From Rubritalea squalenifaciens DSM 18772 (GTDB lineage: Bacteria; Verrucomicrobiota; Verrucomicrobiia; Verrucomicrobiales; Akkermansiaceae), in the NCBI RefSeq assembly GCF_900141815.1, contig NZ_FQYR01000005.1, positions 186,001 to 250,000 of the forward strand: a stretch of 64,000 nt of DNA. Direction: 5' to 3'. A program made the position numbers and the translations under genes. The notes beneath the pieces are model-generated. The model saw only the letters and a list, made by a program, of their open reading frames with translations, did not search any database and was not told the DNA's origin. This document shows, piece by piece, positions 37,652 through 41,980 of this stretch (positions within the stretch are counted from its first letter, which is position 1; each line of letters starts with the position of its first letter).

Positions 37652-38965
37652 ATGGATCACCAACCTGATAGAGAGTCACTGCTGCGCAATGTGAAGATTT
37701 TTGTCTGGTTCCGGGTGTTGTTTAACGCCCGGTTTTACTATCCTATATTCGCGATTTTCTTTACTGATCTTGGATTGAGTGTGGGACAGTTTCTCTGGCT
37801 GAATGCTATTTGGGCGATCACGATTGTTCTGTTTGAGGTGCCCAGTGGGGTGCTGGCTGATTTGGTGGGTAGACGCAAGCTGGTGCTGTTTGCGGCGGCG
37901 AGCATGATGATTGAAATGGCCTTGCTGATCGTGGCTCCTCAGAATGGTGGCTGGGTGTTGTTTGGCGTTTGTGCCCTGAACCGCTTTCTCAGTGGCTTGG
38001 CTGAGGCTGCTGCGAGTGGTGCAGATGAGGCCTTGGCTTATGACTCCCTGAGTATGGCGGAAGAGACTGGTGAAGAGGTTGAGGAAAAATGGGACCGGGT
38101 GTTAGTCTCGGCGATGCGCTGGCGATCGGCGGGTATGCTGGTGGCCATGCCCGTTGGAGCTTTGGTGTTCGACCATGCGATGATGATTAAAGTCTTTGGT
38201 GATTATCCTGCCGTGATTAGTCTCAAAATGCCGGTGATCCTGTGCTTTGTGACCGCGTGTATTTGTTTCGTCTTGGCCTGTAGACTGGTTGATCTAGGAA
38301 TCCGCAAGCGTCCTCCGGGGGCCAGAGCCCGGGTGGGGGATATCAGTGAAGGGATCTTGGATGCTGGTAAATGGGTCTTGAGAGCCAGATGGATCGCTGG
38401 GCTGATTGCTGCAGCCTTAATGATCGACGCGGTTTCCAGAACCTTCGTGACTTTACTCAGTGAGTATTACCGGAGCATCTCACTACCTGAGTATAGTTAT
38501 GGTTTCATTGGGGCATTGATGTCTGTAGGGGGGTGGGTTGTGCCCATGTATGTCAGACCTCTGGTGAAGCTTTATTCGCCACGAACGAATATGCTTATGG
38601 CTGGTGCGATTGCAGTATTGGGCTTGTTAGGTGCATCGGTAGCTCATTCGTGGTGGGGTGTCCTCCCTTGCTTTGTCGTGATGATTTCACTGGTGCACGT
38701 GGGTTTCCTGATGAGCCGCTACATCAATAAGGAAGCTCCGAGCGAGATGCGTGCATCGATCCTCAGTGTAAACAATCTGACCCTCAATCTGGGCTATGGA
38801 GTTTTCTCGGCTTTGTTTGCCGTGAGAATGAAACAGACTGCTGGAGATTTAGGTGATATGGGGGCCTTCGATGAGGCTCTGAGCCTGACCCCCTGGGTAC
38901 TTCTAGTTTATTTGGTTCTCTGGTTTATGACGAGCGCTTCTTGGAGCAGAAATTCACTAAAATAA
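37652..38965 (+). CDS. MFS transporter
   Basis: 437 residues with about 12 hydrophobic segments. The MFS loop motif is VLFEVPSGVLADLVGRRKLVL near residue 68, with an acidic cytoplasmic loop (EETGEEVEEKW) between helices 4 and 5. The C-terminal half retains a repeated helix pattern with a MSRYINKEAPSEMRASILS loop as in MFS exporters of the antibiotic/multidrug type. The substrate is unknown. The last 41 bp overlap the convergent NhaC-family gene, an unusually long coding overlap. Confidence 0.88.
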   Translation: MDHQPDRESLLRNVKIFVWFRVLFNARFYYPIFAIFFTDLGLSVGQFLWLNAIWAITIVLFEVPSGVLADLVGRRKLVLFAAASMMIEMALLIVAPQNGGWVLFGVCALNRFLSGLAEAAASGADEALAYDSLSMAEETGEEVEEKWDRVLVSAMRWRSAGMLVAMPVGALVFDHAMMIKVFGDYPAVISLKMPVILCFVTACICFVLACRLVDLGIRKRPPGARARVGDISEGILDAGKWVLRARWIAGLIAAALMIDAVSRTFVTLLSEYYRSISLPEYSYGFIGALMSVGGWVVPMYVRPLVKLYSPRTNMLMAGAIAVLGLLGASVAHSWWGVLPCFVVMISLVHVGFLMSRYINKEAPSEMRASILSVNNLTLNLGYGVFSALFAVRMKQTAGDLGDMGAFDEALSLTPWVLLVYLVLWFMTSASWSRNSLK

Positions 38966-40517
38966 TAAGAAATGCGGCACCAGCTAAGAGGGCTGTATAG
39001 GATGAGAATCCGATGGCGATTCCTGTGTATCCAAGAGCGAGAGCGGTGCCAGCTGCGATCAGAGCGTATGGTAGCTGCGTAAGTACGTGCTCACGTGGAC
39101 TGACCCCGCAAGCAAAGGAGCTTACAATGGTGGTGTCACTAAATGGGCTACAGTGGTCACCAAAGACAGCACCGCTGAAGACGGCGCCAATGACTGCTGG
39201 TAGCAGTGGATAGCTTTCAGGCGTCAGGGTTAGGTAGGCCGGAATAGCGATGGGCATGAGCAGTGCCATGGTGCCCCATGAACTCCCGGTGGTGAAACTC
39301 ACCAGTGCGCCAGTGATAAATATGGCTGCCGGGAAATACTGGACCGAAAAGGTGGAGCCTATCGTGTCTGCTAACCACTGGGCTGTACCAAGCTCTTTCA
39401 TCACACTGCCGAATGTCCAGGCCATGATGAGGATGAGTAGAGGAGAAAGCATGCTGGAGGCCCCTTGGGAGACGATCGAGGGTAGCTCGATTTTGCTCTT
39501 GTTAGGAAAGAGGATGCAAGCTGCTGCAAGTCCGATGACGCTGCCCAGTGTCAGGGCGTAAGGGGCGGCATTGCTGCTGAAGGCTGTGGTGAGTTTGTCC
39601 GCGGTAACGGGGAACAGAGGAGAGGTCTCCCAAAGGTAGAACAATGAGAGTATCGCACAGGCTAATACAATAATGGGAATGATTGCGGTGTGGATACTTG
39701 AACCAGTTTGTGAGCTTTGATGGGAAGTGGCTGGCTCATTAGCGGCAGCATTTTTCATCGGGCCGATATTCCATTGCCTCCAAATGACCAAGGCTAACAA
39801 AATTAGTGTGAAGGTGCAGTAGTAGTTCGCCGGGATAGATTGGAAAAACAGTGTGTATGCGGATTCTGTGACAGCGGTCCCCTCGGTGGATTGCTGGATG
39901 AGTGAAAGCTGGGTGGCTATCCAGGTGGAGATGAATGCGACGCAGGCTACTGAGCTGGAAGTGGAATCGACTAGATAGGCCATTCGGGCTCGCGGTACTC
40001 CTACACGGTCTGCGAGTGGCTGGGTCACTTTTCCTAGCAGAAGAGAGTTGGCTAGGCCGTCAAAGAAGCAAAGCAGCCCCATAAGCATGGTAGTGCCTTC
40101 TAGCTTGCGGGAGGGGTTTCCTGATTTTTTCTCAAGTAGTCTGAGGGCCAGTGATTCAAATCCGCCACCTTTCTCCAGTACCATGGCGAAGGATCCCAAT
40201 ACGAGCGTGAAGAGAATGGCTCCGATTCTCCAGCTCCCCTGCATGGAGGCAAAGAAATGGCTCTCAGTAAGGCTGATGAAGGATTGTCCGAGGTTTCCAT
40301 GCGTGAGGAAGAGGCAGCCAGAGAGAGCCCCGGCGAAGAGACCTGCCACCGCTTGGCGTGATGCGATGATCGTGGCCAGTGCAACAAATGCGGGCCAGAG
40401 CGCAGCGATTGAAGTGGACTGGGTCGTCGCTGAAAGCACCCAGCTGATCAAAAGCAGCAGGCAGAGGGTAATGGCTGGTTGATACTTTCTAACCAAAGGC
40501 ATGACGGGGCTTAGCAT
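38925..40517 (-). CDS. NhaC-family Na+/H+ antiporter
   Basis: 530 residues with about 12 membrane helices. NhaC-family signatures include FFDGLANSLLLGKVTQPLADR, VDSTSSSVACVAFISTWIATQ and the GSSWGTMALLMPIAIPAY block. GAVFSGAVFGDHCSPFSDTTIV carries the conserved Asp/His region used in ion exchange. It probably exports sodium, possibly with an amino-acid substrate as in related families, and is useful in a marine setting. Its 3' end overlaps the MFS gene on the opposite strand. Confidence 0.92.
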   Translation of the reverse strand: MLSPVMPLVRKYQPAITLCLLLLISWVLSATTQSTSIAALWPAFVALATIIASRQAVAGLFAGALSGCLFLTHGNLGQSFISLTESHFFASMQGSWRIGAILFTLVLGSFAMVLEKGGGFESLALRLLEKKSGNPSRKLEGTTMLMGLLCFFDGLANSLLLGKVTQPLADRVGVPRARMAYLVDSTSSSVACVAFISTWIATQLSLIQQSTEGTAVTESAYTLFFQSIPANYYCTFTLILLALVIWRQWNIGPMKNAAANEPATSHQSSQTGSSIHTAIIPIIVLACAILSLFYLWETSPLFPVTADKLTTAFSSNAAPYALTLGSVIGLAAACILFPNKSKIELPSIVSQGASSMLSPLLILIMAWTFGSVMKELGTAQWLADTIGSTFSVQYFPAAIFITGALVSFTTGSSWGTMALLMPIAIPAYLTLTPESYPLLPAVIGAVFSGAVFGDHCSPFSDTTIVSSFACGVSPREHVLTQLPYALIAAGTALALGYTGIAIGFSSYTALLAGAAFLIILVNFCSKKRSS

Positions 40518-40600
40518 GGGCTAAAGCTTGTGCTGCTGCAACCATGAAGCTGACCGAGATAGTGGGAATACATGCTGGCGGTCATGACTCGTACCAGCAT

Positions 40601-41125
40601 ATGAAGACGATAGTGAAACAGATGCAGAGGGTCTTAATGCTTGGGTTGTTCAGTTTGTTGAGCGCAGCCTCTCAAGCTGGAGAAGTGAAGGTGGGTGAAG
40701 TAGCACCTGACTTTGAGTTGAAAAATCAGGACGGTAAAGTGGTCAAGTTAAGCGACTACAAAGGCAAAAAGAAAGTTGTTCTCGTTTTCAGCAGAGGTCA
40801 CTGGTGACCGTTCTGTCTAAAGCAGCTGGTCGAGCTGCGTCGCGAGTATGACACCATCAAAGGGATGGATGCTGAGGTGATTTCAGTCTTCCGGGAGGAG
40901 AAGGAGGGGGTGGAAGGTCTTCAGAAGACAGCCAAGCGAACCAAGGCTTCCTTTCAGTTGCTTGATGACCTAGGTGCAACCCAAACTAAGGTTTATAGTC
41001 AAGAGGGGTTTGATTCTTACATTATCGGTATAGATGGCCGTGTGGAAGCCAAGCTGGACGGGGTGAAAAAAGTACGTCCAGCCGCAAAAAAATTAGTTGA
41101 AGAACTGTTAAAGCTGAGCGAGTAG
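40601..41125 (+). CDS. Candidate selenocysteine peroxiredoxin-like protein (TGA at 40805 read as Sec)
   Basis: AhpC/TSA-type thiol peroxidase with an exported N-terminus (MKTIVKQMQRVLMLGLFSLL, then SAASQA before GEV). The peroxiredoxin opening VGEVAPDFELKNQDGKVVKL is followed by KKVVLVFSRGHW, then TGA (40805-40807), then PFCLKQLVELRREYD. Homologues have Cys at the TGA position in RGxWCPxC, so the product would be a 174-residue protein with Sec at 69. The only Cys in the protein is at 72 (UxxC). The frame is the same before and after TGA, and no stop intervenes until 41125. A SECIS-like hairpin follows at 40822-40838. ATG 40601 is preferred over 40544 because of the signal peptide. A cysteine-to-stop null mutation is the alternative. 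Confidence 0.8.
40822..40838 (+). promoter_or_regulatory. Candidate bacterial SECIS element
   Basis: GCAGCT (40822-40827) pairs perfectly with AGCTGC (40833-40838) around the loop GGTCG. The loop begins 20 nt after the in-frame TGA, and bacterial SECIS elements carry a G-rich apical loop at about this distance. It lies within the coding sequence, as SelB-binding elements in bacteria do. Short complementary segments can arise by chance, so this rests mainly on its agreement with the TGA context. Confidence 0.6.
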
Positions 41126-41176
41126 TACCGCGTTAGTGAAAAGCACAAAGGTAGGTTCTTAGTGCGATAGTATCAG

Positions 41177-41206
41177 ACCGTCGTCCTTTACTGGGCGACG
41201 GTTTTT
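41177..41206 (+). terminator. Intrinsic terminator after the selenoprotein candidate
   Basis: ACCGTCGTCC (41177-41186) pairs with GGGCGACGGT (41193-41202) with one wobble around TTTACT, followed by TTTTT. Its position 51 bp past the second stop, not near the TGA, supports transcription of the whole interrupted frame as one gene. Confidence 0.9.
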
Positions 41207-41242: not shown

Positions 41243-41980
41243 ATGAAAGTAGAGATATGTATCGATAGTGTGGGTAGTGCCTTGGCTGCGCAGGCTGGAG
41301 GAGCCGACCGGGTGGAGCTTTGTGCCAATCTGGTGGAGGGTGGAACCACTCCTTCATACGGAATGATCAAGCAGGTGAAGGAGAAGTGTGGTCTGGGACT
41401 CATGGTGATCATCCGTCCTCGTGGAGGGGATTTCCTCTATGATGAGGATGAAAAACAGGTCTGCCTTGAGGAGATTGAGGCGGCGCGTGCATTAGGAGTC
41501 GACGGGGTCGTGATTGGTGCGCTTAACAAGGATGCGACGATCGATAAAGAGTTTACCAAGCTCATGCTGGAGCGAGCTCAGGGCTTGGAAGTCACTTTCC
41601 ACCGGGCCTTTGATATGACTGTGGATCTGAGTATCGCTCTGGAGGAGCTGATTGATCTGGGTATTACCCGCGTGCTGACTTCAGGAGGGAAGGCTGATGT
41701 TCATGCAGGAGCTGAAGTGATTGCTGATTTGGTGAAGCAAGCAGATGGGCGAATTTCCATCATGCCGGGTGGCGGTGTCTCCAAAGGAGATGTGGCGGCC
41801 TTGGTGAAAAAAACGGGTGTGATGGAAGTGCATACGACTGCCAGCCAAGAGATTTTCAGCAAAATGGAAGTACGCAATGACGGCTGTTCCATGGGGGCGG
41901 CGTCCGAGGGGCGCGAGTATGTGATCAAGGTGACCGATGAAGCCACCGTGAGAAACATCGTAGAGCAGGCCAAAAGTTGA
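41243..41980 (+). CDS. cutC: Copper homeostasis protein CutC
   Basis: 245 residues forming the CutC TIM barrel. Signatures are VEICIDSVGSALAAQAGGADRVELCANL near the N-terminus, IRPRGGDFLYD, VDGVVIGALNKD, VTFHRAFDM, and ITRVLTSGG later. The family was named for copper tolerance in E. coli, though its enzymatic role is unresolved. It is convergent with mlaE, and the two stop codons are directly adjacent (41978-41980 and 41981-41983). Confidence 0.96.
   Translation: MKVEICIDSVGSALAAQAGGADRVELCANLVEGGTTPSYGMIKQVKEKCGLGLMVIIRPRGGDFLYDEDEKQVCLEEIEAARALGVDGVVIGALNKDATIDKEFTKLMLERAQGLEVTFHRAFDMTVDLSIALEELIDLGITRVLTSGGKADVHAGAEVIADLVKQADGRISIMPGGGVSKGDVAALVKKTGVMEVHTTASQEIFSKMEVRNDGCSMGAASEGREYVIKVTDEATVRNIVEQAKS

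Follow-up and report, generated by a model that had tools for sequence, protein, structure and literature searches.

A probable selenocysteine-containing UxxC redoxin gene of the AhpC/TSA family in Rubritalea squalenifaciens DSM 18772

The gene at positions 40601-41125 (plus strand) of the window, i.e., the whole stretch of 64,000 nucleotides analysed here, very probably encodes a genuine selenoprotein of 174 residues with selenocysteine (Sec, U69) at the UGA codon 69 (40805-40807). Judging from the genes and the sequence, SelB and Sec-tRNA would read this codon as Sec, and a hairpin located 20 nt downstream would guide the decoding. The predicted product is a thioredoxin-fold protein of the AhpC/TSA family (PF00578), probably exported, with the redox motif U69-P-F-C72 where a helix begins, and would most likely work as a thiol:disulfide oxidoreductase. 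In the chemistry proposed, the U69 selenolate would attack a disulfide or hydroperoxide, and C72 would resolve the intermediate as a selenenylsulfide.

The reading frame 40601-41122 was interrupted once, by the TGA at 40805-40807 in the context VFSRGHW-U-PFCLKQLVEL, and no further stop was found before the final TAG (41123-41125). The translation yielded 174 residues with a sole Cys, C72, three residues past U69. The original prediction had described these features in the same way, and they stood when coordinates and frame were re-read, as did its expectation that standard gene callers would split the gene: the ORF listing (table 11) cuts it into 40544-40807 and 40865-41125. Such a listing divides genes of this kind at the UGA, severing the active site. 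The start codon may be ATG 40601 or, according to the ORF list, 40544. Upstream, this list has a long frame on the opposite strand (38925-40517), and downstream, a separate one on the same strand (41243-41980). Residues 1-26 (40601-40678, plus strand) were judged by eye to form a probable signal peptide, in which AlphaFold2 predicted a helix (residues 2-20); export of the protein is likely on this basis. The terminator that had been noted past the second stop was recovered as a terminator-like 12-pair hairpin with a T run (41175-41204, plus strand), and two weaker terminator-like matches lie within the gene (40692-40709 and 40796-40809). At the latter position, a hairpin whose 5-bp stem is perfect (GGTCACTGGTGACC) straddles the Sec TGA itself. 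Within the window, neither the Rfam scan (gathering scores) nor the tRNA scan gave a match.

Frames that stay open past a TGA are not rare in the window: among 144 open stretches of 60 codons or more that end in TGA, counted on both strands, nine, this gene included, continued for at least 105 further codons. The case therefore rests on homology, machinery, and relatives. What exceeds chance at this gene is the homology spanning the TGA, with the PF00578 match covering residues 31-132 and the relative L056 carrying TGA in the same column. Compared with L056, the changes at codon positions 1/2/3 numbered 25/18/43 before the TGA and 50/32/68 after it, i.e., the third-position excess was observed on both sides.

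The read-through protein matched PF00578 (AhpC-TSA) with 77 bits, the gathering cut-off being 26, and also PF08534 (Redoxin, 51.9 bits); of the NCBIfam models, 19 families matched at E ≤ 0.1, none of them over its own cut-off. In the AlphaFold2 model (alignment of 39 rows, pLDDT 88.9), U69 directly precedes the helix 70-88. The best Foldseek matches of this model were Bcp and AhpE peroxiredoxins, closely followed by ResA-type proteins, and the best PDB sequence matches were thioredoxin-family proteins and one Bcp. These likenesses bear on the function, which the original prediction had given as a highly reactive thiol/selenol peroxidase. The PF00578 fold, the Bcp and AhpE matches, and the general suitability of a Sec nucleophile for peroxide reduction favor a selenoprotein whose main role would be that of a selenol peroxiredoxin; however, the CxxC oxidoreductases of the ResA type matched about as well, and the active site is of another kind. 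The peroxiredoxin signature is PxxxTxxC. The protein has R65 at the P position and U69 at the T position of this signature (R65...U69PFC72), and the motif given for selenoperoxiredoxins in Table 1 of PMC13188914 and in PMC1088965, TxxU, is likewise absent. In tblastn alignments, U69 stood opposite the Thr and C72 opposite the Cys of the Bcp-type TPGC, including that of L002 from the same genome. By alignment, the protein thus appears to retain the peroxidatic Cys position of a true peroxiredoxin and to have Sec in place of the Thr, whereas its likeness to thioredoxins lies in the UxxC site, U69-P-F-C72. A mainly peroxidatic role is rather unlikely, and a thiol:disulfide oxidoreductase is the favored, fairly probable reading over a dedicated peroxidase. 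With a UxxC site set in the PF00578 fold, the better supported name for the protein is Prx-like thiol:disulfide oxidoreductase, as published for UxxC members, rather than thiol/selenol peroxidase.

The relatives carried either TGA or Cys in the column of U69, in agreement with the predicted replacement of a Cys codon. Site residues were read in matches that had been given a locus and in those fetched besides. TGA was found at the same site in 18 further loci, spanning several families, and the five aligned TGA relatives were 33-45% identical to the window protein. The family search of 260 genomes (E ≤ 1e-8) gave a match in 36 genomes, R. squalenifaciens included, most of them distant. The nearest relatives were two copies in the genome G173, about 18 kb apart, one with TGA at the same codon (L056, 43.8% in the tblastn alignment) and one with TGC (L057/L027, 49.1%). 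Profile searches at the level of the class (384 genomes), phylum (387), and order (288), in sets that overlap, brought in the TGA loci L146, L147, L151, L165, L190-L196, L199-L201, and L205 and the TGC loci L160 and L161; the motif of L190 is UGFC instead of UPFC. The phylum search with the single protein (387 genomes, E ≤ 1e-15) reached only one other genome, which has a Cys homologue; more were obtained with profiles, for which other thresholds applied. A scan of genome contigs with two peptide patterns returned 80 loci, mostly Bcp- and ResA-type redoxins, with TGA at the UPFC site only in L073, and a viral scan returned 81 pattern matches and no relatives.

Several loci showed further features. 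L056 (943-2501) comprises a pair of TGA-bearing redoxin genes with the overlap ATGA; the terminal TGA of the Prx-like gene presumably serves as a stop, and the gene after it has SW-U-AGC followed by a TPR-like region. The redoxin domain of L146 (1483-2478, minus strand; G627) has UPPC and follows, within one fused protein, a region bearing a haem-like CxxCH motif, where the Cytochrome_CBB3 match (18.1 bits) was under the cut-off of 27; this fusion would fit an extracytoplasmic place. The Cys member L160 (G404:C86) is interrupted by a TAG shortly past its CPxC motif (a few codons), which could reflect a broken gene or an error in the sequence. The related genomes also contain distinct TxxU-type peroxiredoxin genes with TGA at the peroxidatic site (PKAFTGG-U; L038, L059, L060, L062, L152, and L153), which, together with L082, were left out of the clade counts.

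The R. squalenifaciens genome (4.32 Mb, 96.7% complete) encodes SelA, SelB, SelD, and tRNA-Sec (SelC), each scoring over its curated cut-off, so that the four genes named as a check in the original prediction were all found. SelA (506.8 bits) and SelD (378.3 bits) are located on contig C3 and SelB (300.1 bits) on C8; tRNA-Sec lies outside the window at C4:705828-705918 (50.8 bits, gathering score 47) and was also called by ARAGORN, with the anticodon TCA. The SelD gene (L024 1501-2433, C3:915205) itself has an in-frame TGA at the active site (MASCGGUASK), and a GGU-type hairpin was observed downstream of it. A candidate for a second redox selenoprotein of this genome is a 369-residue ResA-like protein with GYW-U-GPC (L003 1354-2463, minus strand; C2:33393); its relative L061 (G174) shares this TGA, and the hairpin found there, with a GGUC loop, is strong, its score being reached by 23 of 5000 recodings. 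Among the 260 family genomes, SelA was detected in 70 (E ≤ 1e-40): it was present in 6 of 7 genomes with a TGA-marked match and in 64 of the 253 others (Fisher p 0.0018, uncorrected for kinship, some of the seven matches being TxxU- or ResA-type genes). SelB was present in 5 of 6 TGA-bearing genomes checked; G627, the 89% complete genome with the TGA member L146, had no SelB at E ≤ 1e-60. In G184, SelA was not detected at 1e-40, yet SelB was present.

A SECIS-like hairpin (stem GCAGCU/AGCUGC, loop GGUCG) is located at 40822-40838 on the plus strand, with the loop at 40828-40832 starting 20 nt past the UGA. The bSECIS model in the legend of Fig. 2 of PMC13188914 has a loop of 3-9 nt, a stem of 4-16 bp, a G in the first two loop positions, a distance of 16-37 nt from the UGA, and an MFE of at most -7.5 kcal/mol; the hairpin found here agrees with it in all respects (6 bp, GGUCG, 20 nt, -12 kcal/mol). 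Its energy was not unusual against shuffled sequences (z -0.49 and -0.40) and was rejected as proof of a SECIS. All six pairs formed in 11% of synonymous recodings of the gene, and the encoded amino acids KQLVELR favor the structure, so the hairpin is weak evidence when taken alone. The comparison across relatives was more informative. Stems of at least 6 bp, with the loop and distance limits of the bSECIS model applied and its energy limit left aside, were found in 19 of 19 TGA rows (L073 included) and in 11 of 50 Cys rows (p 1e-9). The six-pair register of the window gene was matched exactly in 9 of 19 and 0 of 50, respectively (p 2e-6). The contrast is confounded by the mostly different amino acids past the motif in the Cys rows. 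An earlier, smaller Cys set gave such stems in 10 of 45 rows; some Cys loci that failed the filters, e.g., L028 and L053, are outside the counts.

The early alignment comprised the 7 TGA and 24 Cys rows that were selected by a regular expression. Standard pairs occupied 97.6% of the pair cells of the 7 TGA rows; the covariation score and the percentage paired were each reached by none of 500 shuffles, and both sides had changed at two of the six pairs, as many as in 70 of 500 shuffles. The recoding chances multiplied over six TGA rows, the window gene included and L073 with its five-pair hairpin left out, amounted to 10^-5.7 if the rows were independent. Since the chance of the best stem in single genes ranged from 0.08 to 0.35, the hairpins are persuasive only as a set, the rows of which are related by descent. 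A different register with the loop GGU is common to seven close TGA rows (L194-L196, L199-L201, and L205). As a single-gene test, the GGU-loop hairpin was rejected: it followed 38 of the window's 2651 TGA triplets when 6 bp or more were required and 86 of the 2651 when 5 bp or more sufficed, and at 5 bp it was passed by 7 of 13 Sec candidates and also by the sole Cys control. A remnant SECIS in the Cys copy L027 was likewise rejected, as four of the six pairs are left and 78% of recodings reach that number.

These data also bear on whether the TGA arose by sequencing error or through a recent nonsense mutation that left a Cys gene dead or truncated. A single base change would turn TGC, TGT, or TGG into TGA, and frames continuing past a TGA occur in the window, as counted above. 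However, the presence of the same TGA in diverged relatives makes this explanation very unlikely, and the complete Sec machinery, the difference in hairpins between TGA and Cys rows, and the codon-position bias persisting past the TGA argue against it as well. Decoding of the UGA as a residue other than Sec, or its leaky read-through (Trp or a suppressor), is compatible with the sequence alone, but it is even less probable, given the Cys at the aligned position of homologues lacking the TGA, the service of TGA as an ordinary stop in 2 of 12 clear genes of the window, and the tRNA-Sec with its matching anticodon. The reading as a selenoprotein, which the Sec genes, the column-matched TGA or Cys, and the SECIS-like hairpin jointly favor, thus upholds the central claim of the original prediction.

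The direction of the Sec/Cys exchange was assessed from trees. In the 68-row tree (18 U and 50 C rows, LG+G4, site residue masked), all 18 U rows and three C rows (L027, and L160 with L161) were separated from the 47 other C rows with support of 100/96, and holding the U rows together without L027, L160, and L161 was rejected (p-AU 3e-6). The 61-row tree, built without the TGA loci L191, L201, and L073 and the Cys loci L158, L169, and L176, agreed (97/92; p 4e-5, or 0.0016 with L160 and L161 let in), and so did the 29-row tree with either of two models (p 0.001 and 0.0045); L073 is absent from all three trees. Three changes suffice, one basal and two Sec-to-Cys reversions. On these topologies, the Sec-to-Cys direction for L027 would hold unless the tree is rooted on the L027 branch itself; which row is the exact sister of L027 is uncertain (p 0.44 and 0.46 for the window protein and L056 together, 29-row tree), and the trees warn of long branches, including L146, L193, L042, and L165. 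We tentatively propose that Sec is ancestral in the UxxC clade of the window protein, with at least two replacements by Cys, and that the Sec and Cys copies of G173 form a swap pair that may switch with the selenium supply. Such a pair of paralogues offers a way to gauge the benefit of selenium to a probably exported redox enzyme.

Selenoproteins of this kind are already known, as the original prediction had stated: UxxC members of PF00578 have been in print since at least 2005, and the window gene adds a member. Prx-like UxxC selenoproteins comprised 22 Sargasso Sea sequences in PMC1088965, the Prx-like 1 group comprised 225 GOS sequences in PMC2398784, and members with UxxC or UxxU are named Prx-like thiol:disulfide oxidoreductase in Table 1 of a 2026 review (PMC13188914). 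A search of titles and abstract openings for verrucomicrobial selenoproteins found no paper on such a gene. The likeness to this oxidoreductase, of which WP_010940744.1 is the published representative, was judged by family and motif, the window protein having both PF00578 and UxxC; the likely export signal sets the window protein apart from the Prx-like UxxC family. The Cys homologues with RGxWCPYC or RGxWCPFC, many with open frames of about 250 aa, align over the redoxin domain with Cys at the Sec column, but 47 of the 50 rows form the separate tree group, and none shares the six-pair register. ResA/TlpA proteins, which are among the good sequence and fold matches, have a CxxC-type site at the helix start like the window protein, which is nevertheless under the NCBIfam ResA cut-off (50.2 vs. 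170 bits); the likeness to the SelL-related NF040769 (45.8 bits, cut-off 120) and to PrxU NF040737 (34.6 bits, cut-off 270) is weak. For the Prx-like thiol:disulfide oxidoreductase family, Table 1 of the 2006 survey (PMC1794560) lists 8 Sec members, three Cys-to-Sec events, and no Sec-to-Cys event. The Sec-to-Cys reversion implied by the tree of the present clade is unrecorded in that table and contrasts with its Cys-to-Sec changes only, and the clade thus provides a test of the published claim that replacement of Sec by Cys is rare in thiol oxidoreductases.
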